64,000 nucleotides of DNA from Caulobacterales bacterium (GTDB lineage Bacteria; Pseudomonadota; Alphaproteobacteria; Caulobacterales; Caulobacteraceae): contig CANJID010000005.1 in assembly GCA_947474395.1 (NCBI GenBank), forward strand, positions 1 through 64,000, written 5' to 3'. How positions within the stretch are numbered: position 1 is the first letter of the stretch; every line of letters begins with the position of its first letter. A model generated the notes under the pieces. The model was not told the origin of the DNA. It did no database searches and saw only the letters and a list, made by a program, of their open reading frames with translations. Positions 8,865 through 43,652 of the stretch are shown here, piece by piece. Position numbers and translations under genes: made by a program.

Positions 8865-8930
8865 CGTGGGCGGCCCTGTACGCTGGCCCAGCCCTCGGGC
8901 TATGGAATTCAAAACCCAGGGGGACCGCCG

Positions 8931-9941
8931 ATGCATCTCGCCAGCTTCACCTACGAGGGCCGCGACCGGATCGGGTTCCGGGTCGGCGAGGACCACCTGG
9001 TCGACCTGGCGGACGCCGCGAAGCTGGCGGGCAAGGCGGCCCCGGCGGACATGGTTACGCTGATCGAGGGCGGGGAGGCGGCGCTCGCCGACGCCAGGGC
9101 GGCCTATGCGGCGGTTAAGGCCAATCCGTCGGCCGTCACCCTGATCCCGCTCGACAAGGTGCGTTGGCTGCCCCCCGTGCGAAAGCCCGGCAAGGTGCTG
9201 GGCATCGCCCTGAACAACTCGGCCTCCGACGCCCGACGCATCTCGGGGCCCAGCCACCCGATGTTCTTCACCAAGCCGCGCACCTGCCTGCTGGGCCACC
9301 TGGAGGACATCGAGGCGCGGCCCTACTACGGCGGTTTCCACCCGGAGCCGGAACTGGCGGTGATCATCGGCAAGCGGGCCAAGGACCTGGACCCGGCCAA
9401 GGCGATGGACGTGGTGTTCGGCTACACCATCCACAACGACATGACCGGCAACGCCATGCGCGCCGAGGACATGGTCCACTACTGGGCGCTCTACGCGAAG
9501 CCGGACAATCCGAGCGAGGTGGAAAAGCGCGAGCAGCACCTGTCCTACGCCGGCCGCTACAAGGGCGCGGACGGCTTCGGGCCCATGGGGCCGTGGCTGG
9601 CGACCAAGGACGAGATCCCCGACCCCCACGCGCTCGACGTGACCTGCACCCTGGGGGGCGTGGTCCTGGCCGAGGATTCCACCCGCTACCTGACCTACAC
9701 CGTGCCCGAGGTCTTGGCCTTCATCTCGCGCTTTCAGACCCTGGAGCCGGGGGACATCATCTCCATGGGCACCGCCTTCCGCCCGCAGCCGGGCCAGACC
9801 CGCTCGCTCCATACCGGCGACCTGCAGAAGTTCGACGGCCCGCTGGAGGTGACCATCACGGGCCTCGGAAAGCTCAGCAACGGCGTGCGCCGTGTCGACC
9901 CCAAGCTGCCGGACTGGCGACTGCCGAAAGAGCCGACCTAG
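8931..9941 (+). CDS. Fumarylacetoacetate hydrolase (FAH) family protein
   Basis: A 336-residue member of the FAH superfamily, which cleaves or decarboxylates beta-keto-acid-type products of aromatic degradation with a bound Mg2+. The conserved core GFHPEPELAVIIGKRAKDL carries the two metal-binding glutamates (ExE), and VFGYTIHNDMTGNAM and EPGDIISMGTAFRPQPGQ follow as in the family. I used the ATG at 8931 after GGGGGACC; an upstream start at 8808 would lie in repeat sequence. It may act on a ring-cleavage product made by other enzymes of this region, but the exact reaction (hydrolase, isomerase or decarboxylase) cannot be read from the sequence. Confidence 0.83.
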   Translation: MHLASFTYEGRDRIGFRVGEDHLVDLADAAKLAGKAAPADMVTLIEGGEAALADARAAYAAVKANPSAVTLIPLDKVRWLPPVRKPGKVLGIALNNSASDARRISGPSHPMFFTKPRTCLLGHLEDIEARPYYGGFHPEPELAVIIGKRAKDLDPAKAMDVVFGYTIHNDMTGNAMRAEDMVHYWALYAKPDNPSEVEKREQHLSYAGRYKGADGFGPMGPWLATKDEIPDPHALDVTCTLGGVVLAEDSTRYLTYTVPEVLAFISRFQTLEPGDIISMGTAFRPQPGQTRSLHTGDLQKFDGPLEVTITGLGKLSNGVRRVDPKLPDWRLPKEPT

Positions 9942-9965
9942 CCGGAAACTCGAACGAAATCGGTG

Positions 9966-10382
9966 ATGATCTCCTTCGCGAACGTCACGTCCCACCGGGC
10001 CATTTTCGGCGACCAGCCGGACGTGGGGGATATTCTGAGGTTCGTGGAGGTTGATCTGACGATCGCCGTTCCGCCGGTCACACTTTGTGGTCGCGACCTG
10101 GGCTTGGTCGATACGCTTACGGGCTTCAGTTCCGCGCGGTTGCTTCGCCGGGAAGGCGAAACCGATCTCGGCGAGATCACGGACGGATTGCGTTTCAGAT
10201 GGACGGCGGCCGACGACATGTTCGTCATCCGGAGTCCCTTGGCTTCGAGCCCAATAACCGTACCCGCCATCGAATTCCTGGAAGAACTCTACGATCAGGC
10301 GAGGTCGCTCTGCCGGGATATGAAAGAGGCCGGGCTGCATGCTGAAGCGACCATGCTGATCCAGCTTCTTGCGTTGGGCTGA
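9966..10382 (+). CDS. Hypothetical protein, 138 aa
   Basis: This small protein was not recognised. It has no signal peptide or membrane segment. Residues 1-90 look beta-rich (ISFANVTSHRAIFGDQPDVG, then LRFVEVDLTIAVPPV) and the C-terminal 35 residues are helical. Its composition is less GC-biased than the neighbouring catabolic genes. The ATG at 9966 overlaps a GTG at 9963 and lies 24 bases after the FAH-family stop. It is convergent with pobA. An immunity-like or accessory gene acquired separately is possible, but that is a guess. Confidence 0.5.
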   Translation: MISFANVTSHRAIFGDQPDVGDILRFVEVDLTIAVPPVTLCGRDLGLVDTLTGFSSARLLRREGETDLGEITDGLRFRWTAADDMFVIRSPLASSPITVPAIEFLEELYDQARSLCRDMKEAGLHAEATMLIQLLALG

Positions 10383-10407
10383 TTACGCTTGGCTTCGCAG
10401 CCCCGCC

Positions 10408-12569
<2,162 letters not shown>

Positions 12570-12573
<4 letters not shown>

Positions 12574-13022
12574 GTCCTGACCGTTCCCGGCGGGGGGACG
12601 TCGGGGTTCAGGAAGGCGGAGCGGATGTGGCGTTCGGCGATCCGCCAGCGGCCGTCCTCGAGGCGGTAGAGGTCCTCGAAGTCGGCGACGTTGAAGGGGT
12701 CGGCCATCTGGATCGGCGCGACGCCCGGCGAGGCGAAGGCCAGCCAGTTGGAAAAGCCCTTTGCCTCGGTCTCGGACACGAAGGTCACGCGCAGGCCCGA
12801 GTAGAAGTGGCGCGACGTGCGCGGCCCCCCCGCCAGGCGCTTGTGGAAGAAGGCCTCGATCTCGTCCCGGCCTTGGCTGATGCGCGGGCCATTGGTGTAG
12901 AGGGCGTCCTCGGTGAAGAGCGCCGTCAGCGCCGCCACCTCCCCGTGGTCGAGGAAATAGCCGTAGTCGTCGTTGAGCTGGCGCAGGGCGAAGCGGTCGC
13001 CGAGCCGATCGGGAAGGTCCAT
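12570..13022 (-). CDS. SnoaL/NTF2-like protein
   Basis: A 150-residue single-domain protein of the SnoaL-like polyketide-cyclase / NTF2 fold. The N-terminal helix (ALRQLNDDYGYFLDHGE) is followed by the typical ALTALFTEDALYTNGP and later by YRLEDGRWRIAERHIRSAF. These proteins act as small-molecule isomerases, lyases or dehydratases, or as subunits of ring-hydroxylating oxygenases. It overlaps the 3' end of pobR tail to tail by four bases and lies 19 bases before the following transporter on the same strand, so the two may be co-transcribed. The function is not determined. Confidence 0.75.
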
Positions 13023-13041
13023 CCCGCTTCCTACAGGCCGA

Positions 13042-14355
13042 TCACCGTTCCAGCCACGCCTTGCGGATCAGGACCGACGCCCCAGCTGCGATCAGGGCCG
13101 GGATGATCATCAGGCCAAGCGCCTGGACGGGGGTGAAATGCTGGATGATCATCGCGCCGACCGGAGGCGCGGAGATGGCGCCGATGCGGCCGATGGTGAC
13201 GGCCCAGCCCACCCCGGTGGCGCGGATGGTCAGGGGATAGAGGGCGGCGGATATGGCCACCACCATGTTCTGGGCCCCGGCTATGCCGACGCCGACCAGC
13301 AGGATCAGACCGGCCCAGTTGACGAAGCTCGTCGGGGTGATGACCAGGCCGAGCAGGGCGACCGCGCCCAGGCTGTAGCCGATGGTCAGGCCCAGGTTCG
13401 GGCGCCCCCGGTCGATCTGGCCGGAGAGGGCGAAGGCGCCGACCACGCCCCCGAGCTGGAACATGCCCGTGGCGGTCAGGGCCTGGGGGCTGGTCCAGTG
13501 GGCGGCGCGCAGGATGGTCGGCAGCCAGCTGGTCAGGAGGTAGATGATGAAGATGTTGAACACATAGATGACCCAGATCAGGGCAGTGCGGGCGCGATAT
13601 TCGCGGCTGAGGAGGTCCAGCACCGAATAACGGCGGGCGATTTCGGGGGCGATGGTCAGGCTGGCCGGGTCGAGGCCGGGGAACAGCCCCGCCGCGATCC
13701 TTGGTATGCGTGGGTCGCCGGGCCGCTTGGCCATCAGGAACTTGATCGATTCCGGGGTGAAGACGGCGACTGCGGCCGCCGCGATCAGCGAGCCGACGCC
13801 GCCGAAGATGAACAGGCCCCGCCAGTCGGCGATCCCCAGCTTCACCGCCGCGGCCATCACCGGGGTGGCGATGATCCCGGCCAGGAAGCCGCCGACGCCG
13901 ACGCTGCAATACATGATGGTGACCAACCAGCTGCGTTTGCGCAGCGGCATGTATTCGGCGGTCAGGGTGGTGGCGTTGGGCACCATGCCGCCGATGCCCA
14001 GGCCCGTCAGCAGGCGCCAGATGAAGAAGTCGGTGGTGGTCCCGGAGAAGGCGGTCGCCAGGGTCGCTAGGGCCGCGATGGTCAGGCTCCAGGCCATCAC
14101 CCGCTTGCGTCCCAGCCGGTCGCCGAGCGGCCCGCCGAAGCCGGCGCCCAGGCCCAGCCCCACTAGGGAGGCGGTGAGCGCCAGGGTGAAGGCCGCGGGC
14201 GGCAGGTGCAGGGCCGCGCCCACCGAGGGGACGGCCAAGCCCATAACCGTGATGTCGTAGCCGTCGAACAGCATGACCAGGCCGCAGAAGGCCATGACCC
14301 GGAAATGGAAACCGCCGACGCGCTTGTCGTCGATCAGCTGGGTGATTTCGGTCAT
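13042..14355 (-). CDS. MFS aromatic acid:H+ symporter (AAHS family), copy 1
   Basis: A 437-residue inner-membrane carrier with 12 predicted helices. The helix-1 motif VMLFDGYDITVMGLAVPSVG has the DGxD-type signature of the AAHS family (PcaK, BenK, VanK), and LGRKRVMA follows helix 2. LLTGLGIGGMVPNATTLTAEYMP is the family's helix-4 region. Family members import benzoate, 4-hydroxybenzoate, protocatechuate or vanillate with protons. It sits near pobA and is paralogous to the next gene along, so import of a PobA-pathway acid is likely; the exact substrate is not readable. Confidence 0.86.
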   Translation of the reverse strand: MTEITQLIDDKRVGGFHFRVMAFCGLVMLFDGYDITVMGLAVPSVGAALHLPPAAFTLALTASLVGLGLGAGFGGPLGDRLGRKRVMAWSLTIAALATLATAFSGTTTDFFIWRLLTGLGIGGMVPNATTLTAEYMPLRKRSWLVTIMYCSVGVGGFLAGIIATPVMAAAVKLGIADWRGLFIFGGVGSLIAAAAVAVFTPESIKFLMAKRPGDPRIPRIAAGLFPGLDPASLTIAPEIARRYSVLDLLSREYRARTALIWVIYVFNIFIIYLLTSWLPTILRAAHWTSPQALTATGMFQLGGVVGAFALSGQIDRGRPNLGLTIGYSLGAVALLGLVITPTSFVNWAGLILLVGVGIAGAQNMVVAISAALYPLTIRATGVGWAVTIGRIGAISAPPVGAMIIQHFTPVQALGLMIIPALIAAGASVLIRKAWLER

Positions 14356-16884: not shown

Positions 16885-17799
16885 GTGAGCTCGAATCTTC
16901 AGAGGGCCATCGAGGCCGGTCAATTCGTGATGACCGCCGAAGTCACGCCGCCGCTTTCGGTGGATCCCAAGGACCTGCTCGAAAAGGCCATGCCGCTCAA
17001 GGGCTTCGCCGACGCGGTGAACGTCACCGACGGCGCCAGCGCGAAAACCCACCTGGATGCGACCATCGCGGCGATCATCCTGAAGGAAAACGGCATCGAG
17101 CCGATCCTCCAGCTCACCTGCCGCGACAAGAACCGCATCGCCCTGCAGAGCCAGCTTGTGGGCGCCTCGGCCATGGGGCTGCACAACATCCTGATCCTGG
17201 GCGGGGACGATCCCAAGAAGGGCGACCAGCCGGAAGCCAAGGCGGTGTTCGACCTCGATTCCACCACCCTGATTCAGACGGCCGCCACTATCCGCGACAA
17301 GCACGAGCTGCTGCACGGCCGAAAGGTCGGCGGGGACCCGCACTTCTTCATCGGCGCCGCCGACGCTCCGGTCGATCCGAAGGAGGGCTGGGAGCCCAAG
17401 GGCCTGCTGAAAAAGGTCGAGGCCGGCGCCCAGTTCGCCCAGACCCAGTTCTGCATGGATGCCGATGTGGTCGCCCGCTACATGGCGCGGCTGGCTGAAT
17501 TCGGCATCACCGACAAGCTCAGCTTCCTGATCGGCGTCGCGCCTCTGGCCTCGGCCAAGTCCGGCCGCTGGATGAAGGAGAACCTGTTCGGCACGGTGAT
17601 CCCCGACTGGATCATCGACCGCATGGACGCCGCCGCCGATCCCAAGGCGGAAGGCAAGGCCATCGCCGTAGAGGTCATCGAGCAGCTGGCGCAGATCCCG
17701 GGCGTTCGCGGGGTGCACCTGATGGCGCCGCTGAACGAGCACGCCATCCCCGACGTGATCACCGAGGTGCGCAAGCGGGTGAAGAAGGCGGCTCGGTAG
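16885..17799 (+). CDS. Methylenetetrahydrofolate reductase family protein
   Basis: A 304-residue TIM-barrel flavoprotein of the MTHFR family, which reduces 5,10-methylene- to 5-methyl-tetrahydrofolate. The start is a GTG at 16885 preceded by AAAGGAG. Family regions include the N-terminal MTAEVTPPLSVDPKDLLEKA, the folate/FAD region DAVNVTDGASAKTHLDAT, ILQLTCRDKNRIALQSQLVG, NILILGGDDPKKGDQPEAKA and QTQFCMDADVVARYMARL. It is slightly longer than E. coli MetF and resembles the versions found with tetrahydrofolate-dependent O-demethylation (LigM/MetF systems), where the reductase recycles the methyl group from vanillate or syringate. No demethylase is in the window, so that link is an inference. 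Confidence 0.85.
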   Translation: MSSNLQRAIEAGQFVMTAEVTPPLSVDPKDLLEKAMPLKGFADAVNVTDGASAKTHLDATIAAIILKENGIEPILQLTCRDKNRIALQSQLVGASAMGLHNILILGGDDPKKGDQPEAKAVFDLDSTTLIQTAATIRDKHELLHGRKVGGDPHFFIGAADAPVDPKEGWEPKGLLKKVEAGAQFAQTQFCMDADVVARYMARLAEFGITDKLSFLIGVAPLASAKSGRWMKENLFGTVIPDWIIDRMDAAADPKAEGKAIAVEVIEQLAQIPGVRGVHLMAPLNEHAIPDVITEVRKRVKKAAR

Positions 17800-21979: not shown

Positions 21980-23134
21980 TCACGCCTCCGGCCACGCGCC
22001 GGGCGCCTTGGCCAGCGCCTCGCGGATCGCCTGATCCTGCTGGCCCAGGAGCGGGGCGGCGTGGCTTTCGGTGGCGCGCTGGTGGTTGAAGGTGAAGGGG
22101 GTGCGCACCGCCTCCCTGGCGCCCTCGATGGCGTCGACGACTGGCACGATCATGCCGAGGTGGCGGGCCTGCGGGTCGTTGGCGGCCTCCTCGATGTTGT
22201 TGAGGGGAGCGTAGGGCAGGTCGAAGCCTTCGAAGCGGGCGAGCCACTCGGGGCGCGTCTTGGTGGCGAAGATCTTGTTCAGCTCGCCAAGCAGTTCCTC
22301 GTAGTTGTCGATCCGCTTGGGGCGGGTCTCGAAGCGCGGGTCGGCGGTCAGGGCCTGGCCGCCGATGGCCTGCACCAGCGCTTCCCAGAACTTGTCGATG
22401 GAGGACAGGTGCACGCCTAAGTGCCGGCCGTCCTTGCAGGTCAGGATGAAGGCCTGGGCCAGGCGTGGGCGGTCCAGGGCGTTGGGGATTTCGCCCAGCG
22501 CGAAGTAGCCGGTGAAGGGCTCGACGGCGAAGTGCATCATCGCCTCGAGCATGGAAATCTCCATCAGCTTGCCCTTGCCGGTGCGCCCGCGCTCGACCAG
22601 GGCGCCGCAGATGCCCAGCGCCGAATAGATGCCGGTCTGGGCGTCGGCCAGGGCGGGGCCGAGGAGCCGCGGATTGTCCGGGTTGGTGGCCACCCCGAGG
22701 AAGCCCGACAGGGCCTGGGTGACGCTGTCGTAGGACGGCCGGGCGACGTAGGGGCCCTCCGAACCGAAGCCGGAGATGGAGCAGTAGACCAGGCGCGGAT
22801 TGATCGCCGACAGGGCCTCGTAGTCGGCGCCCATGCGCCCCGCCGCGCCCGGGCGGAAGTTCTGGATATAGACGTCGGCCTGGGCGATCAGATCGCGGAA
22901 CACCTCCTTGTCGGCGGCTTCCTTGAGGTTGAGGGTCAGGCTGCGCTTGCCGCGGTTATAGGCCTGGAAGTGCGCGCTATAGAGGCCGCCTTTGAAGTTG
23001 CGGTAGGGATCGCCCACATCCGGGCTCTCGACCTTGATCACGTCCGCGCCCAGGTCGGCCAGCATCATGGCGCAGCAGGGCCCGGTGATGAAGGTGCCCT
23101 GCTCGACGACGCGGATGCCCTTGAGAACGCTCAT
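21980..23134 (-). CDS. Type III (CaiB/BaiF) CoA-transferase
   Basis: A 384-residue family III CoA-transferase, which moves CoA between carboxylic acids through an aspartyl-CoA intermediate. MSVLKGIRVVEQGTFITGPCC and LADLGADVIKVESPDVGDPYR form the CoA-binding N-terminus. NRGKRSLTLNLK and FRPGAAGRMGADYEAL follow, and GPALADAQTGIYSALGI contains the likely catalytic aspartate. The gene lies 65 bases after the citryl-CoA lyase-like gene on the same strand, which suggests that CoA activation and C-C cleavage of the thioester are coupled. The acid is not identifiable from the sequence. Confidence 0.88.
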   Translation of the reverse strand: MSVLKGIRVVEQGTFITGPCCAMMLADLGADVIKVESPDVGDPYRNFKGGLYSAHFQAYNRGKRSLTLNLKEAADKEVFRDLIAQADVYIQNFRPGAAGRMGADYEALSAINPRLVYCSISGFGSEGPYVARPSYDSVTQALSGFLGVATNPDNPRLLGPALADAQTGIYSALGICGALVERGRTGKGKLMEISMLEAMMHFAVEPFTGYFALGEIPNALDRPRLAQAFILTCKDGRHLGVHLSSIDKFWEALVQAIGGQALTADPRFETRPKRIDNYEELLGELNKIFATKTRPEWLARFEGFDLPYAPLNNIEEAANDPQARHLGMIVPVVDAIEGAREAVRTPFTFNHQRATESHAAPLLGQQDQAIREALAKAPGAWPEA

Positions 23135-23199
23135 GCCCTGGTTTCCTCGTTATGCATTGGGGCCTTTGGGGCCCTGGCCCGCTTACTTGATTTCGAAAG

Positions 23200-24009
23200 T
23201 CAGTTCTCGTCGGGCACGAAGCCGTCGGGGGCAGGGCCGTCGTAGGTAATGGCGGCCGAGCCGGCGCCGGCCATGATGAAGCCGATGGCGTGGGTCTGCT
23301 CTTCCAGCAGGTGGCCCACCAGGCTGGCGGTGCGGGCCAGGATCGGCACACCCTTCAGCGCCAGCAGCGGATAGCCCGCGTCCAGCAGCACGGCGGGGAT
23401 GGCGCCGGAGACGTTCAGAGCCAGCGACCGGCCGGTGATCTCCGGCAACAGGCGGTCCACGGCCCAGGCGATCTCGATGCAGCGGCCGGCGAGCCCCGCC
23501 TCCTTGCAGACCTCGATCAGGCGGTGGGCGCGGGGGTCGTGCCCCTTGTGCAGGGGATGGCCGTAACCGGGGATGGCGCGCTTCACCGCCCGGTACTTGC
23601 CGACGGTTTCGCGGACGGCGTCGTCGAGGCCGGAGCCGGCCTCTTGCGCCTGCAGCACCTCGTTGAAGAACAGGCCCGCATTGGCCGAGGCGCCGAGGAT
23701 CACGCTGCCGCAGCCGAGGATGCCGGCGGCGACCGCCCCCTGCAGGGCCTCCGGCGCGGCGGCCAGGGTCATCCGGCTGGCCACAACACTCGGCACCAGG
23801 CCGTGCTCGGCGATGGCGACGAGGGTGGAGTCCAGCACCGTGCGCTGGGCCTCGCTGGGCAGGGTCCCGGCCACCAGCAGCCAGATGTGGTCGGTGAAGC
23901 TGATCTTGCCGACAAGGTCGTTCACCAGGTCGTGCCCGCGGACGATGATCGTCTCCGGATTGGAGGTGCAGATGGCGCTGGTGGGCGCGTTGTCGGGACC
24001 GATCTTCAT
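23200..24009 (-). CDS. Citryl-CoA lyase / citrate synthase-like protein
   Basis: A 269-residue protein, shorter than citrate synthase (about 430), similar to the stand-alone citryl-CoA lyase (CCL) group and the C-terminal part of ATP-citrate lyase. HDLVNDLVGKISFTDHIWLL, SRMTLAAAPEALQGAVAAGI, the catalytic-type histidine region AIPGYGHPLHKGHDPRA and SGAIPAVLLDAGYPLLALKG fit the family. It would split a beta-hydroxyacyl-CoA into two parts or condense them. Paired with the CoA-transferase downstream, a role in cleaving a CoA-activated tricarboxylic-like or beta-hydroxy acid is plausible. A GAGG site precedes the ATG. Confidence 0.78.
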   Translation of the reverse strand: MKIGPDNAPTSAICTSNPETIIVRGHDLVNDLVGKISFTDHIWLLVAGTLPSEAQRTVLDSTLVAIAEHGLVPSVVASRMTLAAAPEALQGAVAAGILGCGSVILGASANAGLFFNEVLQAQEAGSGLDDAVRETVGKYRAVKRAIPGYGHPLHKGHDPRAHRLIEVCKEAGLAGRCIEIAWAVDRLLPEITGRSLALNVSGAIPAVLLDAGYPLLALKGVPILARTASLVGHLLEEQTHAIGFIMAGAGSAAITYDGPAPDGFVPDEN

Positions 24010-24174
24010 GGGCGGGCCTCAGGGGTGGGCGAGGGTCAACATAACGCCGGTAAGTTTGGCTTGACTCGGCGGCCGATCTTTCTAGCCTTCCTGCAACTGC
24101 TAACATAGTCAGCGACTTAAATCGTGGATAGCACCACGGTACGCTAAATAATGGTCGCGCGTTCGGAGGAATTC

Positions 24175-24663
24175 ATGGCGGTTCAGACAAGGTTCGGCTC
24201 GCTAGGCTCGTATGAAAAGGGCAGCATCGAGCTCAACGACGACCTCAAGCACTACGCATTTTCCAATATGTTCGAGGTCGCATCCAAGTCCAAGCCGTTT
24301 GAACGGGTGGCGGTGGCGAAGAATATTGAATATGTCGCCGAGGTCACCAAGGTCGACGGCGCCTCGCCCTGGTATGTCGCCCCCCACGACGAATTCGCCA
24401 TCGTCATGGACGGCGAGATCGAGTTCAACTTCGTGAAGCTGGACCCCTCCGCCGCCCCCGCGGGCGGGCAGGGCGCCAAGCAGCTCGCCGGCGCCCCCAA
24501 CGGCCAGAAGATGGGCAAGGTGCGCGGCCGGCGCGGCCACCAGGTGCTGCTGCCCGCGGGCGCCGCCTACCAGTTCGTCTCCAAGAGCCCTTCCGTCGCC
24601 GTCATCCAGACCCTGCTCGGACCCGTCACCGTCGAGCGGTGGTCCGACATCTGCACCCTCTAG
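24175..24663 (+). CDS. Hydroquinone 1,2-dioxygenase, small subunit
   Basis: A 162-residue protein starting at the ATG at 24175, which has GGAGG six bases upstream. Its cupin-like core (SPWYVAPHDEFAIVMDGEIEFNF, then GHQVLLPAGAAYQFVSKSPSV) and the gene directly downstream match the small subunit of two-component hydroquinone dioxygenases (HapC, PnpC, HqdA type). The heterotetramer opens hydroquinone with oxygen to 4-hydroxymuconic semialdehyde, using Fe(II) in the large subunit. The gap upstream (24010-24174) carries a short palindrome CGTGG-N6-CCACG at 24123-24138 that may be an operator. Assignment is by family memory and operon order. Confidence 0.8.
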   Translation: MAVQTRFGSLGSYEKGSIELNDDLKHYAFSNMFEVASKSKPFERVAVAKNIEYVAEVTKVDGASPWYVAPHDEFAIVMDGEIEFNFVKLDPSAAPAGGQGAKQLAGAPNGQKMGKVRGRRGHQVLLPAGAAYQFVSKSPSVAVIQTLLGPVTVERWSDICTL

Positions 24664-24676
24664 GGAGATCGCACCC

Positions 24677-25666
24677 ATGACCGAAGAGGCCAAGAACGTC
24701 GACATCGTCGTCGGCCCCGCCAATCACCTCGGCTATTCGAGCTTCCAGCTCGGCGGCTTCGAATTCAGCCGGGACGAATATTTCGTCCACATCAAGTGGC
24801 CCAAGGGCAAGCACGTGATGGAGATCGACCGGTTCCTGCGCGCCATGGTGCGGGACATCGGCTGGGGCTTCTTCTACGGCTGGATCTTCTTCGACGACGT
24901 GTTCGGCACCCACAACCACTACGGCACGGTGGACATCTTCGCCGGCGCCTATGACGAGGGCTGCAAGGCCGCCGGGATCGACTACCTGGAGACCTTCACC
25001 TCGGACTCGGTGTCCAAGGGCTTCGAGACCATCTCCAAGAACTGGATCAACGAGGGCTACGATCCCCTCAACGCGCCGATGGAGACCGGCTCGCCCATGG
25101 GCGAGAAGACCAGGGAATCCGACAAGCCTCTCTTGCGCAACTTCATCGCCGCCAAGCGGATGCTGGGCCTGAAGGGCGACGTGGCGGTGCGTTCCGACGA
25201 GACGGGTCACCCGATCAACCGCGCCTTCGCCGACGTGCCGGTGGACAATCCGGACATCGAGGTCGAGCCCGGCTTCGAGGGGCAGCTGCACGCCATCAAC
25301 CTGTTCGACCACATCGCCCGCTCGGACGTGACCTGGAACCCCTCCATCAGCTCGGCGACGCGCAACTCGCTCTGCTGCGTGACGTCGGAGGAGCACATGC
25401 TGCCGGTGATCCACGGCAACGACCGCAACGAGTGGTTCTTCCAGCTCTCCGACGAGATTCACTGGAAGGTGCAGGACAAGAACACCGGCAGGCCGCGCGG
25501 CATCATCGTGATGAAGGCGGGCGACGTCTGCGCCATGCCGGCCGACATCCGCCACCAGGGCTTCTCGCCCAAGCGCTCCATGCTGATGGTGATGGAGAAC
25601 GCCTCGCCCGACCTGCCGGAGCTCTACGCCTCCGGCAAGCTGGCGCCCTATCCGATCGAGTTCTGA
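24677..25666 (+). CDS. Hydroquinone 1,2-dioxygenase, large subunit
   Basis: A 329-residue protein 13 bases after the small subunit, with an AGGGAG site. It resembles the large subunit of HapD/PnpD/HqdB dioxygenases: NHLGYSSFQLGGFEFSRDEYF, MVRDIGWGFFYGWIFFDDVF, FGTHNHYGTVDIFAG and the C-terminal cupin-like region DEIHWKVQDKNTGRP through MPADIRHQGFSPKRSM. Histidines in HNHYG, EEHMLPVIHG and RHQGF are candidate Fe(II) ligands. With the small subunit it forms the ring-cleaving enzyme for hydroquinone. Hydroquinone could come from Baeyer-Villiger cleavage of 4-hydroxyacetophenone or from other para-substituted phenols, but no monooxygenase for that is in the window. Confidence 0.82.
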   Translation: MTEEAKNVDIVVGPANHLGYSSFQLGGFEFSRDEYFVHIKWPKGKHVMEIDRFLRAMVRDIGWGFFYGWIFFDDVFGTHNHYGTVDIFAGAYDEGCKAAGIDYLETFTSDSVSKGFETISKNWINEGYDPLNAPMETGSPMGEKTRESDKPLLRNFIAAKRMLGLKGDVAVRSDETGHPINRAFADVPVDNPDIEVEPGFEGQLHAINLFDHIARSDVTWNPSISSATRNSLCCVTSEEHMLPVIHGNDRNEWFFQLSDEIHWKVQDKNTGRPRGIIVMKAGDVCAMPADIRHQGFSPKRSMLMVMENASPDLPELYASGKLAPYPIEF

Positions 25667-25726
25667 TCACCCGTCGTCGGGCGGGAAGGGGAGCGCACTT
25701 AAGCCCCTATCCCGCCCTTCGGGCGG

Positions 25727-25792
25727 ACTTCCCCCAGAGGGGGAAGGACTAGAAAGAAACGCCGCCTCAGTCCTTCCCCCTCTGGGGGAAGT
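25727..25792. repeat. Perfect 24-bp inverted repeat of the CTTCCCCC family
   Basis: The arms 25727-25750 and 25769-25792 are exact reverse complements, each itself a small hairpin (CTTCCCCC-AGA-GGGGGAAG type). Outer arms GCCCCTATC near 25703 and GATAGGGGC near 25813 extend the pairing. It lies in the 183-base gap between the dioxygenase large subunit and the dehydrogenase gene and could attenuate or stabilise the operon mRNA. Confidence 0.82.
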
Positions 25793-25849
25793 GTCGGCCC
25801 GAACGGGACGACGATAGGGGCTGCGCTGTCGTTTGAGAGGACCACAGCC

Positions 25850-27343
25850 ATGCCCGACGGCGCCGTCGCCTTGCCGACCTTCCAGACCAACCTCTTCATC
25901 GGCGGCGAGTTCGTGCCTGCCGCCAGCGGGGCGACCTTCGAGGTCCTGAACCCGCACGACAATTCGCTTCTGGCCAATGTCTCGGAAGCCGGCGCCGAGG
26001 ACATCGACCGCGCGGTCGTGGCGGCCCAGAAAGCCTTCAAGGTCTGGTCGAAGATGTCCGCCACCGAGCGCGGGCGGATGATCTACAAGCTGGCCGACGC
26101 CATCGAGGCGGACGGGCCGAACCTGGCCATGATCGAGACCCTGGATACGGGCCACCCGATCCGCGACACCCGCAACCTCGACATCATGCGGACGGTGCAG
26201 ACCTTCCGCTATTTCGCCGGCATGGCCGACAAGTACGAGGGCTCGGTGATCCCCGTGGACACCGGCTTCCTCAACTACATCCTGCGGGTGCCGCTCGGGG
26301 TGGTGGGGCTGATCTCGCCCTGGAACTTCCCCCTGATGTTCACCAGCTGGAAGATGGGCCCGGCGCTGGCGGCCGGGAACACCATCGTCTTCAAACCGGC
26401 CGAGCTGACCCCGCTCTCGACCATGCGCATCGCCGAGCTGGCGGCCCAGGTGGGCTTCCCGGCGGGCGTGATCAATGTGGTGCCGGGCTTCGGGAACAAG
26501 GCGGGCCAGCGGCTGGCCGAGCACCCGGACGTGGCCAAGATCGGCTTCACCGGCTCCACCGCCACGGGGCGCAGGATCGTCCAGGCATCGGCGGGCAACC
26601 TGAAGCGCGTGCAGCTCGAGCTCGGGGGCAAGGGCGCCAACATCGTCTTCGACGACGCCAACCTGACGGCGGCGGTGAACGGCTCTGCCTTCGCCATCTT
26701 CCACAACCAGGGCCAGGCCTGCATCGCCGGTTCGCGCTTGCTGCTGCAGGAGACCATCGCGGACGAGTTCCTGGATAAGTTCCTGACGCTGGCGGCCTCG
26801 ATTCGGATCGGCGACCCCCGCGATCCGACCACCGAGATGGGCCCGCTCACCTCGCGCATGCACCAGGAGAAGGTGCTGAGCTACTGCGCCATCGCTCACC
26901 AGGAAGGCGGCGAGATCCTGCTCGGCGGCAAGGCGCCCGACGGCGCGGTGTTCAAGGACGGCTGCTACGTCCTGCCCACGGTGGTGAAGGCCCAACCGCA
27001 GGACCGCGTCTGCATGGAGGAGGTGTTCGGCCCCTTCGTCTCGGTCACGACCTTCCGCGACGAAGAGGAGGTGCTGACCATGGCCAACGGCACGTCCTAT
27101 GGCCTGGGCGGAGGCCTCTGGACCCAGAACCTGACCCGCGCCCACAAGATCGCCGGAGCGATGGACACCGGCATGGCCTGGATCAACTGCTACAAGCGCT
27201 TCCACCCCGGCTCGCCCTTCGGCGGGGTGAAGGATAGCGGCTACGGCCGCGAAATGGGCTTCGACGCCATGCACGAATACACCGAGCCCAAGTCGGTCTG
27301 GGTGAACGTCGACGCCAACATCCCGAACTTCTATCCGCGGTAG
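25850..27343 (+). CDS. Aldehyde dehydrogenase, likely 4-hydroxymuconic semialdehyde dehydrogenase
   Basis: A 497-residue NAD(P)-dependent aldehyde dehydrogenase. The conserved elements are GLISPWNFPLMFTSWKMGPA, FTGSTATGRRIVQ, the general-base glutamate in LELGGKGANIVF and the nucleophilic cysteine near residue 290 in NQGQACIAGSR. It follows the hydroquinone dioxygenase genes, where HapE/PnpE/HqdC-type dehydrogenases oxidise 4-hydroxymuconic semialdehyde to maleylacetate. The expected maleylacetate reductase is missing from the window. The assigned substrate rests on position. Confidence 0.84.
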   Translation: MPDGAVALPTFQTNLFIGGEFVPAASGATFEVLNPHDNSLLANVSEAGAEDIDRAVVAAQKAFKVWSKMSATERGRMIYKLADAIEADGPNLAMIETLDTGHPIRDTRNLDIMRTVQTFRYFAGMADKYEGSVIPVDTGFLNYILRVPLGVVGLISPWNFPLMFTSWKMGPALAAGNTIVFKPAELTPLSTMRIAELAAQVGFPAGVINVVPGFGNKAGQRLAEHPDVAKIGFTGSTATGRRIVQASAGNLKRVQLELGGKGANIVFDDANLTAAVNGSAFAIFHNQGQACIAGSRLLLQETIADEFLDKFLTLAASIRIGDPRDPTTEMGPLTSRMHQEKVLSYCAIAHQEGGEILLGGKAPDGAVFKDGCYVLPTVVKAQPQDRVCMEEVFGPFVSVTTFRDEEEVLTMANGTSYGLGGGLWTQNLTRAHKIAGAMDTGMAWINCYKRFHPGSPFGGVKDSGYGREMGFDAMHEYTEPKSVWVNVDANIPNFYPR

Positions 27344-27805: not shown

Positions 27806-27833
27806 TCGTAGCCCCGCCGGGGTGGCCGCTTTG

Positions 27834-27980
27834 CCCCTCTCCCCGGTGGGGAGAGGGAGGGGCCCGTTCGGCGCAGCCGAATGGGACGGTGAGGGGGACT
27901 GGCCTAGTGCAGTTTCACCCTTGGCCCCCTCACCCGGCAGGCTGACGCCTGCTCGACCTCTCCCCACCGGGGAGAGGGGT
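27834..27980. repeat. Composite inverted palindromic repeat
   Basis: Two CCTCTCCCC-x3-GGGGAGAGG hairpins lie at the two ends. Between them GGTGAGGGGGACTGG and GGCCCCCTCACC face each other and can pair. The block fills most of the 27806-28085 gap, in which I see no gene. Confidence 0.82.
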
Positions 27981-38776: not shown

Positions 38777-40591
38777 ATGAACGCGCCGGTCAAGCCTGTG
38801 GGCTTTCCGCTGCCCAGCTCTGTGAAGGTCATCCCGGGGACGGAGGCGGCCCAGGCCAGCTACCCCTACTTCATGCAGTTCGCGAAGGGGGATGACGAGC
38901 GGTTCTGGTTCTACAACTCGATGCACTTCCCCGAGCCGATGTCGGCCTTCGACACGGTGACGGGGGAGGCGGCCTACATCGCCCTGGGCGCCGCCAACAC
39001 CCGCGTCCACGTCCTGCCGACCGTGCTCGGCATCGACCAGCGCATCATCAACGGGCGCATCTACATCGGCGGCAACGCCGTCACCGACCCGGTCCAGATC
39101 GGCCGGCGCGTCGAGGAGTTCCAGCAGCGCGGGCTCTACTACTACGCCAACTGGGAGCAGCTCTACGCCCAGTGGAAGGTGAAGATGCTCGCCCTGATCA
39201 AGGACGCCGAGGACATCAAGATCCCCGAGCTTCCCGAGTTCGACGACCTCGCCTCGGTCCACGCGGGACGCGGCATCGCCCAGAACCACTTCGTCCTCAC
39301 GGCCTATCACAAGACCATCGAGGGCTACTTCCGGATGTGGCACCACCACTTCGAGTTTCTTCTGCTCGGATATGGGGCCTACATGGTTTTCTTCGAGTTC
39401 TGCAAGAAGGCCTTCCCGGAGATCACCGACCAGACCGTCTCGCGCATGGTGGCCGGGATGAGCCCGGAATTCTTCCGTCCCGACGATGAGCTGAAGGGCC
39501 TGGCGCGGCTCGCGGTCGAGCTCGATATCGACCACAAGTTCCCCGAGGACGGCAAGGCGGATGAGGTCCTGAAGTCCCTCGAGCAGATGGGCGAGCCGGG
39601 CAGGAAGTGGCTGGAGGCCTTCGAGAAGGCGCGCCATCCCTGGTTCAACGTCGGGGTCGGCGACGGCTTCTACCACTATCACCGCAGCTGGAACGACGAC
39701 CTGTCGATCCCCTTCTCGGCCATGCCCGGCTACATGCGCCAGGTCCGCGAGGGCAAGACCCTGGACCGTCCGATCGAGCGGCTGAAGGCCGAGCGCGAGC
39801 GGATCATCGCCGAGTACCGGGACCTCCTGAACACCGACGACGACCGCGCCGCTTTCGACCAGATGATCGGCCTGTCGCACCGGGTGTTCCCCTACGTCGA
39901 GGATCACAAGTTCTACTGCGAGCATTGGTACACCACCCTGTTCTTCAACAAGATCAGGGAGTTTGGCGGACTTCTTGCGCGTCACGACTTCTTCGCGTCC
40001 CCGGAGGACATCTTCCACCTGACCCGCTTCGAGGTGGACGCGGCCCTGTCCGACCTGATGACCTCCTGGTCCACAGGCTCGGCGCCGCGAGGGCCGGACC
40101 ACTGGCCGCCGATCATCGCCATGCGCAAGGCCGCCATCGCCGAATGGGCCAAGCATCCCACTTCGCCGGCGCTGGGCGCCGTGCCGGACGTGATCGACGA
40201 CCCGGCCATCGTCATGCTCTGGGGCATCACCTCGGAGAGCCTGAACGCCTGGCTGAACGAGGATGTGACCTCTAGCGAGATCAAGGGCTTCGCGGCTTCC
40301 CCGGGCGTGGTCGAGGGGATCGCCCGGGTGGTCAAGTCGGTGGATGAGATCGGCCGGCTGCAGGAGGGCGACATCCTGGTCTGCCCGGTCACCAACCCCA
40401 CCTGGGCCCCGATCTTCCGCAAGATCGCCGCCACGGTCTCCGACATCGGCGGCTCCATGAGCCACGCCGCCATCGTCTGCCGCGAGTACGGCCTGCCCGC
40501 CGTGGTCGGCACCGGCACCGCCACCCAGCGGATCAAGGACGGCCAGCGCATCCGGGTCGACGGCTCGCGGGGCGTGGTGACGATTCTCTGA
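38777..40591 (+). CDS. PEP-synthase-like aryl phosphotransferase, substrate/His-domain subunit
   Basis: A 604-residue protein. Residues 1-500 have no standard match and probably bind the phenolic substrate, as in phenylphosphate synthase PpsA or rifampicin phosphotransferase. Residues 510-604 form the swivelling PEP-utilising mobile domain; GGSMSHAAIVCREYG near residue 563 carries the catalytic histidine. The separate next gene supplies the missing ATP-grasp domain. Together they match HpeHI and AcvAB, which phosphorylate the phenol hydroxyl of 4-hydroxyacetophenone or acetovanillone with ATP, giving AMP and phosphate. A GGAGGA site precedes the ATG. It is the first gene of the operon, divergent from the IclR gene. 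Substrate assignment rests on the cluster. Confidence 0.85.
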   Translation: MNAPVKPVGFPLPSSVKVIPGTEAAQASYPYFMQFAKGDDERFWFYNSMHFPEPMSAFDTVTGEAAYIALGAANTRVHVLPTVLGIDQRIINGRIYIGGNAVTDPVQIGRRVEEFQQRGLYYYANWEQLYAQWKVKMLALIKDAEDIKIPELPEFDDLASVHAGRGIAQNHFVLTAYHKTIEGYFRMWHHHFEFLLLGYGAYMVFFEFCKKAFPEITDQTVSRMVAGMSPEFFRPDDELKGLARLAVELDIDHKFPEDGKADEVLKSLEQMGEPGRKWLEAFEKARHPWFNVGVGDGFYHYHRSWNDDLSIPFSAMPGYMRQVREGKTLDRPIERLKAERERIIAEYRDLLNTDDDRAAFDQMIGLSHRVFPYVEDHKFYCEHWYTTLFFNKIREFGGLLARHDFFASPEDIFHLTRFEVDAALSDLMTSWSTGSAPRGPDHWPPIIAMRKAAIAEWAKHPTSPALGAVPDVIDDPAIVMLWGITSESLNAWLNEDVTSSEIKGFAASPGVVEGIARVVKSVDEIGRLQEGDILVCPVTNPTWAPIFRKIAATVSDIGGSMSHAAIVCREYGLPAVVGTGTATQRIKDGQRIRVDGSRGVVTIL

Positions 40592-40630
40592 GGTTGTTCA
40601 TGTTCAAAGTGACTGGTTTCGCGCCTTCAT

Positions 40631-40763
40631 CCCTCTCCCCGTCGGGGAGAGGTCGAGCAGGCGTCAGCCTGCCGGGTGAGGGGGGCTGGCATAATGCGGC
40701 TTCACCCTTAGCCCCCTCACCCGCAGCGCTGCGCGCTGTCGCCTCTCCCCACCGGGGAGAGGG
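40631..40763. repeat. Composite palindromic repeat inside the dikinase operon
   Basis: Two CTCTCCCC hairpins (40631-40652 and 40743-40763) flank facing GGTGAGGGGGGCTGG and GCCCCCTCACC arms. It separates the two dikinase subunit genes. The right hairpin ends in GAGAGGG nine bases before the downstream ATG, so the repeat appears to supply that gene's ribosome site. Confidence 0.82.
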
Positions 40764-40772
40764 ATTAGAGTG

Positions 40773-41816
40773 ATGACCTCCACCGAAACCATCGGCTGGT
40801 TCGCCGACATCGGCCTCGTCGACCGCCCGAGCGTGGGCGGCAAGGGCGGGAGCCTGGGCGAGCTGACCCGCGCCGGCATCGCCGTGCCCCCGGGCTTCGT
40901 CGTCCGCACCGCCGCCTTCGAGCGGTTCATCGAGGCGCTGGAAGCAAGTGCGCCCCTGCGAGCCGAGGTCGAGGCGTTGGACCCGTCCGACCTCGACGCC
41001 GTGACCGCCTGCTCGAAGAAGCTGCGCGCGCGGCTGGAAGCCTCGGACATGCCCGACGCGCTGCGGGCCGAGATCGCGGGCGCCTACGCCGAGCTCGCCG
41101 GCGCGGACCGGCCGGTCGCCGTGCGCTCCTCGGCCACGACGGAAGACGCCGAGGACGCCAGCTTCGCCGGCCTGCAGGACACTTTCCTCTGGGTGATGGG
41201 GGCTGACGAGGTCCTGCACCGGATCCGCACCTGCTGGGCCAGTCTCTATTCAGTGGAGTCCCTCAGCTATCGCCTGAAGCACGGGCTGCCTGAGACCGGC
41301 GTCGCCATGGCGGTGGTGGTGCAGACCATGGTCGACGCCCGCACCGCAGGCGTCATGTTCACCCGCAGCCCCCTGACCGGCGACCGTTCGGTGGTGGCGA
41401 TCGAGGGAAGCTGGGGCCTCGGCTCCTCCGTGGTCGGCGGGGAGGTGACCCCCGACCGCTTCGTGGTCTCAAAGATCACCGGCGAGATCTCGGTGCGCGA
41501 CATCTCGAAAAAGCTGATCCAGCACGTCCCCGCCGCGGCCGGGGGCGTTGACGAGCTCGACGTGCCCACCGAGCGCCAGACCATCCCCTGCCTGTCCGAC
41601 GAGGAGATTTCCGCCCTGACCGACACCGCCAAGAAGGTCGAGCGCCACTACGGCCGGCCCCAGGACATCGAGTGGGCCGTGGACCAGGGCGGGGCCCTGA
41701 TGCTGCTGCAGAGCCGGCCCGAGACGGTCTGGTCGCAGAAGGAGGCCGCCCCCGTCGCCAAGCCCCAGGCCGATCCCCTGATGCATGTGCTGTCGATCTT
41801 CGGAGGCAAGCGGTGA
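40773..41816 (+). CDS. PEP-synthase-like aryl phosphotransferase, ATP-grasp subunit
   Basis: A 347-residue protein equal to the N-terminal ATP-binding domain of PEP synthase/PPDK. The markers are GGKGGSLGELTRAGIAVPPGF (residues 23-43), AVRSSATTEDAEDASFAGLQD, IEGSWGLGSSVVGGEVTP and the closing QDIEWAVDQGGALMLLQSRPE. It has no histidine domain, which the preceding gene carries. As in phenylphosphate synthase, CreHI and HpeHI, ATP would phosphorylate the partner's histidine, which passes the phosphate to a phenol. The ATG at 40773 relies on a purine stretch within the repeat. Its stop overlaps the GTG of the BCCP gene. Confidence 0.87.
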   Translation: MTSTETIGWFADIGLVDRPSVGGKGGSLGELTRAGIAVPPGFVVRTAAFERFIEALEASAPLRAEVEALDPSDLDAVTACSKKLRARLEASDMPDALRAEIAGAYAELAGADRPVAVRSSATTEDAEDASFAGLQDTFLWVMGADEVLHRIRTCWASLYSVESLSYRLKHGLPETGVAMAVVVQTMVDARTAGVMFTRSPLTGDRSVVAIEGSWGLGSSVVGGEVTPDRFVVSKITGEISVRDISKKLIQHVPAAAGGVDELDVPTERQTIPCLSDEEISALTDTAKKVERHYGRPQDIEWAVDQGGALMLLQSRPETVWSQKEAAPVAKPQADPLMHVLSIFGGKR

Positions 41817-42280
41817 GCCTGAAGCCCGACGACATCCGCGAGATCATGGCCCTGCTCGAGGGCTCCAGCTTCGACGAGCTGACCCTGGAGACCGGCGGCG
41901 AGAAGCTGACCCTGCGGCGCGGCAGCCCCGTCGCCCGCGCCGACTACGCCCCGTCGCAGGCGCCGACCGCGACCCAGGCCGCGCCGGCGCCGGCGAAATC
42001 CGGTCCGACCGCCGCGGCGGCCTCCACCGATCCCAATGTGACGGACGTGCCGGCGCCGCTGCTGGGCGACTTCTACTGGGCCCCCAAGCCGGGCGCCGAG
42101 CCCTTCGTGACGGTGGGCCAGAAGGTCGAGCCCGACACGGTGGTCGGCATCATCGAGGTGATGAAGCTGATGAACTCCATCCGCGCCGGGGTGGCCGGGG
42201 TGGTGGAGGAGGTCTGCGCCCCCAACGGCCGGCTGGTGGAATACGGCCAGGTCCTGATGCGGGTCAGGACCGGCGCGTGA
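41813..42280 (+). CDS. Biotin carboxyl carrier protein of a biotin-dependent carboxylase
   Basis: A 155-residue AccB-type carrier. An N-terminal helical region (LKPDDIREIMALLEGSSFDEL), an Ala/Pro-rich linker (residues 45-75) and a biotinyl domain lead to the acceptor lysine K118 in IEVMKLMNSI (canonical EAMKLMN, here with Val before Met). The GTG start at 41813 overlaps the upstream stop (GTGA), with GGAGG before it. It swings CO2-biotin between the biotin carboxylase and carboxyltransferase subunits encoded just downstream. Role in the Hpe-type carboxylase is by operon context; the fatty-acid synthesis AccB is normally elsewhere. Confidence 0.88.
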   Translation: MSLKPDDIREIMALLEGSSFDELTLETGGEKLTLRRGSPVARADYAPSQAPTATQAAPAPAKSGPTAAAASTDPNVTDVPAPLLGDFYWAPKPGAEPFVTVGQKVEPDTVVGIIEVMKLMNSIRAGVAGVVEEVCAPNGRLVEYGQVLMRVRTGA

Positions 42281-43650
42281 GCGACCGGACCATCCGCAGG
42301 ATCCTGATCGCCAACCGCGGCGAGATCGCCCTGCGCGTCATCCGCACCTGCCATCGGCTGGGGATCGAGACCGTGCTGGCGGCCTCCGAGGCCGACATGG
42401 AGAGCCTGCCCGCGCGCATCGCGGGGCGGACCGTCTGCATCGGCCCGGCGCGACCCGGCGAAAGCTACCTGAAGCCTGAGACCATCGTGCAGGCGGCCCT
42501 CGGCGTGGAGGCCGACGCCGTCCATCCCGGCTACGGCTTCCTGTCGGAGAACCCCAGGCTCGCGCGCCTGTGCGAGCAGGAGAAGATCGCCTTCATCGGC
42601 CCGACCGCCGAACAGATCGAGGCGGTGGGGGACAAGCTTTCCGCCCGCGCCCTGGCCGAGGCGGCCGGCGTGCCGGTCGCGCCCGGCGGGCCGGTCGAAA
42701 CACCTGAGGCCGCCCGCGCCATGGCGGAACGGATCGGCGCGCCCCTGCTGATCAAGGCGGTCGGCGGCGGCGGCGGGCGCGGCATGAAGCGGGTGGACGA
42801 CCTGTCGCTCCTCGACGAAGCCATGTCCCTGGCGGCGTCCGAGGCGGGCTCGGCCTTCGGCGACGCGCGGGTCTATCTGGAACGCTACGTCGAGCGCGGC
42901 CGCCACGTCGAGGTCCAGGTCCTGGGCGACGGGGAGCGGGTGATCCACCTCGGCGACCGGGACTGCTCGGTGCAGCGCCGCTACCAGAAGATGATCGAGG
43001 AGGCGCCCGCGCCGTCCCTGCCCGACGCCATGCGGGCCGGACTGCACCAGGCCGCCGTCCGTTTCGGGGAGCGCATCGGCTACCGCGGCGCCGGCACGGT
43101 GGAGTTCCTGGTCGATACGGTGCGGGGCGAATTCTACTTCCTGGAGATGAACGCCCGCATCCAGGTCGAGCATCCGGTCACCGAGGCCATCACCGGCATC
43201 GACCTGGTGGCCGAGCAGATCGCGGTGGCGGAGGGCCGGCCCCTGCGCCTGGCCCAACATGATGTGCCGTTCCTGGGCCACGCCGTCGAATGCCGCGTCA
43301 ACGCCGAGGACCCGGCCCGCGACTTCCAGCCGTCGCCCGGGACCATCACCCACGTCCGCTGGCCGACGGGGGAGGGCATCCGCGTCGACACCCACATCGG
43401 CCCGGGCAGCAAGGTGCCGCCGTACTACGACTCCATGGTCGCCAAGATCATCGCCCACGGCCCTGACCGGGCGACGGCGCTGGCCCGCCTGCGCCAGGCC
43501 CTGGCGGCGACGGAGCTCGAGGGCATCAGGACCAACATCGGCTTCCAGGCGTCCATCCTGGCGGACGCCGAGTTCAACGGGGGCGGGGTCGACACCGGAT
43601 TCCTGCCCCGCTTCATGGCGCGGACGGCGCCCGTCACGGCGGAGGCCTGA
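42277..43650 (+). CDS. Biotin carboxylase subunit
   Basis: A 457-residue AccC-family protein that uses ATP and bicarbonate to carboxylate biotin on the carrier. ILIANRGEIALRVIRTCHRLG, HPGYGFLSEN, the ATP-loop AVGGGGGRGMKRV and the catalytic stretch EMNARIQVEHPVTE are all present. The start is a GTG at 42277 overlapping the BCCP stop; three successive four-base overlaps in this operon signal tight coupling. It is a second AccC-type enzyme, dedicated to the catabolic carboxylase, as the carboxyltransferase directly downstream is not of acetyl-CoA type. Confidence 0.9.
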   Translation: MSDRTIRRILIANRGEIALRVIRTCHRLGIETVLAASEADMESLPARIAGRTVCIGPARPGESYLKPETIVQAALGVEADAVHPGYGFLSENPRLARLCEQEKIAFIGPTAEQIEAVGDKLSARALAEAAGVPVAPGGPVETPEAARAMAERIGAPLLIKAVGGGGGRGMKRVDDLSLLDEAMSLAASEAGSAFGDARVYLERYVERGRHVEVQVLGDGERVIHLGDRDCSVQRRYQKMIEEAPAPSLPDAMRAGLHQAAVRFGERIGYRGAGTVEFLVDTVRGEFYFLEMNARIQVEHPVTEAITGIDLVAEQIAVAEGRPLRLAQHDVPFLGHAVECRVNAEDPARDFQPSPGTITHVRWPTGEGIRVDTHIGPGSKVPPYYDSMVAKIIAHGPDRATALARLRQALAATELEGIRTNIGFQASILADAEFNGGGVDTGFLPRFMARTAPVTAEA

Positions 43651-43652
43651 GC

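Follow-up and report, generated by a model that had tools for sequence, protein, structure and literature searches.

In the 64,000-nucleotide stretch of Caulobacteraceae DNA analyzed here (the window, positions 1 to 64,000 of contig CANJID010000005.1), the genes for a two-subunit dioxygenase of the hydroquinone-dioxygenase type and for a semialdehyde dehydrogenase (24175–27343) diverge from a pair of genes (21980–24009) for a coenzyme A (CoA) transferase and a citrate-synthase-fold protein annotated as citryl-CoA lyase. We propose that this CoA pair may act after the dioxygenase and dehydrogenase, converting a ring-fission β-keto acid, maleylacetate, to its CoA ester and then to acetyl-CoA and a C4 diacid, a scheme that we consider possible, with a little less than an even chance of being right. 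The CoA pair is the part of the locus that a specialist would not expect, and the company that its genes keep hints at the CoA step. A first-pass annotation of the window had named the dioxygenase and dehydrogenase; the divergent CoA-transferase/lyase pair, a second, canonical dioxygenase copy elsewhere in the genome and the separate clade into which the window copy falls are additions to it.

Judging from the protein families, hydroquinone, or a substituted hydroquinone, would be cleaved to 4-hydroxymuconic semialdehyde by the dioxygenase (24175–25666), and the semialdehyde would be converted by the dehydrogenase (25850–27343) to maleylacetate, the product expected in the first-pass annotation and likely from these families. 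In textbook accounts, the pathways for hydroquinone, hydroxyquinol and many chlorophenols leave by way of maleylacetate reductase; comparative genomics suggests that the divergent pair could work in place of this enzyme. Because maleylacetate is a β-keto acid, a CoA-transferase could make its thioester: the CaiB-type transferase would load CoA onto the ring-fission product, and the citrate-synthase-fold protein, which is of a type with Ser at a catalytic position (Ser-type), would cleave this thioester, releasing acetyl-CoA and a C4 diacid (maleate or fumarate). A LeuCD-type hydratase, plausibly a maleate hydratase, may carry maleate onward in some loci. Intradiol cleavage of hydroxyquinol also yields maleylacetate, and a wider form of the proposal is thus a CoA-dependent, reductase-free lower pathway for the fission products of para-diphenols and hydroxyquinol, in which the transferase and a Ser-type enzyme of new activity would break maleylacetate down to maleate and acetyl-CoA, some loci adding a maleate hydratase of the LeuCD type, and the module lying beside three unrelated dioxygenase folds in alpha- and betaproteobacteria; this wider form we put forward only tentatively.

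Ring-cleavage and dehydrogenase genes

The predicted gene identities are far beyond chance, and the case for the dioxygenase-type and dehydrogenase assignments is strong. The large catalytic subunit (24677–25666, plus strand, 329 amino acids; copy A, HqdB/PnpD-like) scores 150.5 bits against the Pfam model for the hydroquinone 1,2-dioxygenase large subunit (PF18191, cut-off 25), 405.8 bits against HqdB of Sphingomonas sp. TTNP3 (5m21_B, over residues 15–329) and 400.3 bits against PnpD of Pseudomonas sp. WBC-3 (4zxa). It also holds H246, N248, E252 and H293 at the positions of His256, Asn258, Glu262 and His303 of PnpD, which we take to be the iron ligands, and this H/N/E/H pattern is present in 50/50 aligned large subunits. 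The small, HqdA/PnpC-like subunit (24175–24663, plus strand, 162 amino acids) matches PnpC (4zxa_A, 168.6 bits) and HqdA (5m21_A, 159.8 bits); searches of Pfam and NCBIfam with it matched no model. The two-subunit enzyme of the first-pass annotation is thereby borne out, as is its dehydrogenase: the PnpE-like 4-hydroxymuconic semialdehyde dehydrogenase (25850–27343, plus strand, 497 amino acids) scores 758.6 bits to PnpE (4go3) and 761.1 bits to 4o6r, and of 13 compared residues that PMC4225490 names as contacting the cofactor or docked substrate in PnpE, 12 are identical, the sites including the catalytic Cys281 and Glu247 and the exception being I146, which is Ser156 in the window protein. 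We use the name hydroquinone-dioxygenase-type because the window copy belongs to a sister clade of the characterized enzymes; its substrate preference is predicted from the family.

The three genes had been described as an operon, and the order small subunit, large subunit, semialdehyde dehydrogenase, which the window has in common with the canonical pnpCDE-F hydroquinone operon, does stand; the dehydrogenase, however, is parted from the large subunit by a 183-bp spacer with an inverted repeat (25667–25849) and falls outside the DNA block shared with the nearest relative, where block-wise similarity ends at about the spacer. The inverted repeat itself (25700–25815) looks like a dispersed repeat, as a similar stretch (72%) occurs at 12961–13069 of that relative. 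For the small subunit we prefer the start at 24175 over an ATG at 24151, since a GGAGGAAT box ahead of the former is conserved in the relative.

A conserved divergent block

The nearest relative, L004, is a locus from a Caulobacteraceae metagenome-assembled genome (MAG) and is the same stretch as contig C95 of genome G008. DNA common to it and the window is confined to 22038–24020 (79.4% identity) and 24052–25669 (81.4%), outside of which only two short repeat matches were found (E ≤ 1e-5). The block so defined takes in the class III (CaiB/BaiF) CoA-transferase (21980–23134, minus strand; a full-length PF02515 match of 365 bits, 81% identical in L004) and its partner, the "citryl-CoA lyase" (23200–24009, minus strand; matching PF00285), followed divergently by the small subunit (85.8% identical) and large subunit of the dioxygenase. 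The divergent intergenic region (24010–24174) has in the alignment a CTTGACTCG box, promoter-like by eye, that is kept in L004; inverted repeats of at least 8 bp were looked for in this region and none was found, and the idea of an operator between the divergent genes was rejected on that ground. In G008 the CoA pair touches the dioxygenase and an intradiol dioxygenase adjoins the CoA-transferase, and searches of that genome for maleylacetate reductase, and for a PnpE-like dehydrogenase at E ≤ 1e-150, found none.

How often do these genes travel together? Across 299 Caulobacteraceae genomes, the dioxygenase search matched four: the present genome (both copies), G008 (82% identity), and G037 and G049, whose dioxygenases are of the canonical type. 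In the lyase search, 191 genomes passed E ≤ 0.001, the majority with matches at citrate-synthase level, and identity above 50% was confined to this genome (100%), G008 (78%) and G031 (53%). Close versions of the dioxygenase and of the lyase-like gene occur in the same two of 299 genomes.

Ser-type lyase-like proteins and their neighbors

The lyase-like protein scores 300.9 bits against NF004868 (NCBIfam PRK06224 subfamily, cut-off 193) and 116.6 bits against citryl-CoA lyase (6hxp). It shares a fold family, and both catalytic His positions, with 6hxp and with the citrate-synthase-like domain of ATP-citrate lyase (6qcl); these two, however, have an Asp in the motif NVDG, found also in L207–L209, and read GYGHR, where the window protein has Ser201 and GYGHP. 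We take that residue to be the catalytic Asp of the citrate-synthase triad, and because it is replaced by Ser201 we rejected a literal citryl-CoA lyase and do not class the protein as one. The Asp site is Ser, Asn, Thr or Gln in 36 of the 39 family members compared.

We compared the 12 Ser-type loci whose protein is at least 50% identical to that of the window, the window included, with the 27 other family members. A ring-cleavage dioxygenase lies within 4 kb in 10/12 Ser-type loci versus 1/27 of the others (L184, a LigB match at 31%; Fisher p = 1.1e-6, with rows that are related and not independent, and with a flank shorter than 4 kb on one side in L004 and in 7/27 comparison loci). The neighboring enzyme is the two-subunit type in the window and L004, an intradiol dioxygenase in L004, L179, L181, L183 and L187, and a LigB dioxygenase in L174, L175, L176 and L180; L177 and L178 have no ring-cleavage dioxygenase within that distance. 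Because dioxygenases of unrelated folds (two-subunit, intradiol and LigB extradiol) adjoin it in different bacteria, the CoA pair behaves as a module. In the lyase tree L180 is the sister of L187, yet the two differ in dioxygenase fold; both have an amidohydrolase (68% and 66% identical to that of L174).

A lyase-like match was present in 100 plasmid records, 40 of them listed, and 16 were examined: nine with annotated hits, taken across the range of identities and with a single representative of nine near-identical Burkholderia glumae records, and seven chosen without neighbor annotation. All seven of the latter proved to be Ser-type; a dioxygenase lies within 4 kb in 5/7 (LigB in L214 and L215, intradiol in L216, L217 and L218, none in L213 and L219), and a CaiB-type gene within 2.2 kb in 6/7. 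Of all 19 Ser-type loci, counting the window, 15 lie within 4 kb of a ring-cleavage dioxygenase belonging to one of the three folds; neighbors were counted by eye, and L216/L217 and L178/L219 are close pairs. Apart from a 26% match in L183, maleylacetate reductase was found in 0/19 of these loci in the flanks examined. LeuC/LeuD-type hydratase genes lie 1.8 to 7.5 kb away in 4/19 (L179, L181 with LeuC only, L213 and L218) and in 0/27 of the other family members.

Relatives with other residues at the site keep other company. L116, L185 and L186 have an Asn-type lyase-like gene with a CoA-transferase and MetE-like or UroD-like genes near, and no dioxygenase in the flanks examined; in L199 (3853–10703) a Thr-type lyase-like gene and a CoA-transferase stand among biotin-dependent carboxylase-like genes (38–52% identical to hpeC, hpeB and hpeA). 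Among the open-licence matches listed by title or opening of the abstract, we found no description of the CoA pair with ring-cleavage dioxygenases. Two papers mention both a citryl-CoA lyase and a dioxygenase: the Cupriavidus metallidurans genome paper (PMC2864759), which in these passages only rules out a reductive tricarboxylic acid cycle, and PMC5805725, which in its passages gives only gene abundances.

A separate clade of hydroquinone-dioxygenase-type enzymes

The genome has two PF18191 matches. One is the window copy; the other is on contig C78 (L042), where a second, canonical hydroquinone dioxygenase (8552–9070 and 9914–10912) has its own small subunit and a DUF1801 gene between the subunits. 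That contig also carries genes for a carotenoid/lignostilbene-type oxygenase and for another aldehyde dehydrogenase, and it ends 885 bp past the dioxygenase. In a tree of 50 large subunits, the window copy and 33 other loci form a clade (clade A) apart from the characterized enzymes and the C78 copy with 100/100 support, on a stem of 1.24 changes per column; the window copy is thus in a sister clade to the characterized hydroquinone 1,2-dioxygenases and does not group with them. Beside the window, clade A is made up of L004 (of which L121 is the same stretch, counted once), 15 gammaproteobacterial rows, one of them titled Klebsiella, and 17 Sphingomonadales or unclassed alphaproteobacterial rows; L035, on a long branch (1.07), was placed on the canonical side after the tree was made. 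Ten positions are fixed in 34/34 clade-A rows and different in 14 or 15 of the 15 canonical rows, which include two near-identical pairs (4zxa/L142 and 5m21/L147). Among the ten are A75G, N84F and R169F in PnpD numbering, A75 starting the AWGFFYG segment and N84 lying just past it.

HqdAB and PnpCD share with the window enzyme their subunit order, PF18191 and the four iron ligands; unlike them, it sits in a separate 34-row clade with ten fixed differences, has no adjoining maleylacetate reductase and, in the window and L004, is adjoined by the CoA pair. The window large subunit is 52.0–59.7% identical to 20 plasmid records, two of which, L142 and L147, are near-identical in the tree to PnpD and HqdB, respectively; identity to these near-copies of the solved enzymes is about 55%. 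Its closest relatives might have been dioxygenases of another type with another substrate, and this is not the case: the closest characterized ones are hydroquinone dioxygenases, while the closest of all are, so far as this analysis shows, uncharacterized. The window dioxygenase thus appears to be a separate variant of the hydroquinone-dioxygenase family.

Might clade A cleave another para-diphenol, for example a 2-substituted hydroquinone such as methoxyhydroquinone? The ten fixed positions, A75G, N84F and R169F among them, and the retention of a canonical copy in the genome speak for it, a MetF-like gene at 16891–17799 may point to methoxyl metabolism, and PMC3222310 gives the rate of the TTNP3 hydroquinone dioxygenase on 2-methoxyhydroquinone as 59% of that on hydroquinone. 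On the other side, 86 alignment columns besides the iron ligands are invariant, and the fixed positions are known from the alignment, not placed in a structure. We consider a different substrate somewhat unlikely; it is compatible with a CoA-dependent exit and does not exclude it.

Two further observations concern the gammaproteobacterial members. L028 comes from a MAG that bears the name Klebsiella pneumoniae, probably wrongly, since in the tree the locus falls among MAGs of uncultured gammaproteobacteria. In L018, L021, L023, L026, L027, L028, L030, L031 and L037, a gene of a single cluster lies about 2.5 kb upstream of the clade-A dioxygenase, the L018 member being a pyrroloquinoline quinone-type dehydrogenase; a PnpE-like dehydrogenase follows the dioxygenase in 8/9 of these loci.

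Maleylacetate reductase and the fate of the ring-fission product

Maleylacetate reductase had been listed as missing in the first-pass annotation; that holds for the window, but not for the genome, in which a search found one on contig C19 (400.1 bits to 3hl0 and 396.6 bits to 3w5s). For the Fe-alcohol dehydrogenase candidates, no NCBIfam model exceeds its cut-off; the reductase was identified through the solved structures. Its presence supports an ordinary hydroquinone pathway, in which the window genes would make maleylacetate, the C19 reductase would turn it into 3-oxoadipate and the CoA pair would be an unrelated neighbor; the PnpE-like dehydrogenase directly downstream of the window dioxygenase is likewise in its favor. 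Three considerations lead us to regard this pathway as rather unlikely to be the one served by the window enzyme. The canonical dioxygenase on C78 could be the one that uses the C19 reductase; the conserved block contains the CoA pair but not the dehydrogenase; and the reductase is rare in the company of clade A.

On this last point, 12 of the 14 canonical loci (L035, L042, L117, L118, L120 and L141–L149) hold a maleylacetate reductase, the exceptions being L141 and L042, the latter ending at a contig end, and most also have an intradiol dioxygenase of the hydroxyquinol type; the window dioxygenase locus has neither. Among clade-A loci, the window included, the reductase was found in 0/34 (in the flanks examined, some of which are short). 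Whole-genome searches returned a match of some kind in 18/34 genomes. Only eight of these matches span most of the protein, at 47–64% identity; the ten remaining ones do not exceed 35% except over short pieces, and we regarded them as different Fe-dehydrogenases. One of the eight comes from the genome of L035, so that a reductase of at least 47% identity is present in 7/33 clade-A genomes and was not found in 26/33, many of which are incomplete MAGs. The nine clade-A records with NZ_ accessions (L007, L008, L009, L013, L015, L016, L020, L034 and L036) give a similar picture, with a reductase in two (L015 and L016) and none found in seven, and the genome of L016 also has a canonical operon (L120) adjoining its reductase. 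Cultured clade-A strains in which no reductase was detected include Altererythrobacter segetis YJ20 and Sphingobium xanthum NL9. Because no maleylacetate reductase was found in 26/33 clade-A genomes, carbon in these must leave another way.

Several points weigh against a CoA-dependent exit. Since the window genome has a maleylacetate reductase, its CoA pair need not make up for the lack of that enzyme. The pair was seen at only two of the 34 clade-A loci; at the other 32 the search covered the examined flanks, not the genomes, and did not show it. Four of the 19 Ser-type loci are without a dioxygenase within 4 kb. The models do not fix a substrate for the intradiol genes: those of L004, L179 and L181, the three tested, do not reach the cut-off of either the catechol or the chlorocatechol model. 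Cleavage of catechol would give no β-keto acid, and the product of a LigB extradiol enzyme is normally not maleylacetate. The replacement of Asp by Ser in a retro-Claisen cleavage is not accounted for. Finally, as the Asn-type relatives in L116, L185 and L186 pair with a CoA-transferase and have no dioxygenase in the flanks examined, the chemistry of the pair is wider than ring fission.

The aryl-ketone route and neighboring genes

The first-pass annotation was also right to place an aryl-ketone carboxylation route next door. Six genes at 38777–46146 (plus strand) lie in the hpeHICBAD (acvABCDEF) order given in PMC9618137, as in the Hpe/Acv pathway of Rhodococcus GD02 and Sphingobium SYK-6, and the same order is found on contig C8 of G008. 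The set is complete, with a kinase pair, a three-part biotin carboxylase and a phosphatase, and it is predicted to phosphorylate and carboxylate hydroxyacetophenones toward 4-hydroxybenzoate or vanillate. After hpeD, however, the window has a thiamine diphosphate (ThDP) enzyme in place of the hpeE of the known pathway. The ketone-carboxylase gene was found at E ≤ 1e-120 in 2/299 genomes, this one and G008; as the carboxylase and the clade-A dioxygenase occur in the same two genomes, the position of the aryl-ketone genes near the dioxygenase may be more than chance.

Could the CoA pair serve this route instead, replacing HpeE/HpeF and splitting a carboxylase-made aroylacetate into an aromatic acid and acetyl-CoA? 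The chemistry would be the same, since the substrate is also a β-keto acid; a ThDP enzyme and no hpeE directly follows hpeD (searches with HpeE or HpeF themselves were not made); in G008 the window genes next matched after the hpe set are those for major facilitator superfamily transporters; the carboxylase gene is in the same 2/299 genomes; and the Thr-type locus L199 has carboxylase-like genes around its lyase and transferase. Yet hpe genes were found at none of the ten Ser-type loci tested (L174–L181, L183 and L187, with L213–L219 left out) nor on the L004 contig, and chiefly for this reason we disfavor the idea and hold it improbable. Ring-cleavage dioxygenases, by comparison, are present in 10/12 Ser-type loci, and in G008 the pair touches the dioxygenase while the hpe genes lie on another contig.

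A second link between ketone and dioxygenase had been suggested, namely that 4-hydroxyacetophenone passes by a Hap-type Baeyer–Villiger reaction to 4-hydroxyphenyl acetate and then to hydroquinone, which would feed the window enzyme. Such a route is known in Pseudomonas fluorescens ACB (PMC3727088). The draft genome searched for it here comprises 3.58 Mb in 103 contigs (99.65% complete, 1.13% contamination). One protein similar to flavin-containing monooxygenases is over the PF00743 cut-off, and it reads F-x-G-x3-H-x3-H, whereas the Baeyer–Villiger fingerprint ends in W. The fingerprint was found neither in this protein nor in the best frames at other PF13738 places of the genome, and as a DNA pattern it gave three matches versus eight for a reversed control, none of them in a gene-like frame. 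Thus, no protein like 4-hydroxyacetophenone monooxygenase was found in this draft; the first-pass annotation was correct that a Baeyer–Villiger enzyme is missing, and these fruitless fingerprint searches leave the Hap-type supply of hydroquinone without support. The carboxylation route and a 4-hydroxybenzoate 3-monooxygenase, PobA (10408–11580, minus strand; TIGR02360, 647.5 bits, cut-off 538.7), are present instead, and because of PobA, 4-hydroxybenzoate can reach protocatechuate without passing through hydroquinone. We consider the Hap-type link very improbable.

Three minor features of the window may be recorded. Near pobA, an AraC-regulator-like reading (11598–13106) seems by eye to shift frame partway, as if frameshifted. 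A lignostilbene-α,β-dioxygenase-like gene lies at 57535–59139 (773.5 bits, cut-off 800). The tRNA-Thr that ARAGORN calls at 27809–27890, in GC-rich, repeat-like sequence after a YCII gene, had been considered as an island boundary and is probably spurious.

Implications

A CoA-dependent exit, if true, would be one answer to how carbon flows in the clade-A genomes in which no maleylacetate reductase was found. It would also supply a function for a family of the citrate-synthase fold that is mis-annotated and altered at a catalytic residue, and it would help in predicting and building pathways for the degradation of lignin and phenols.

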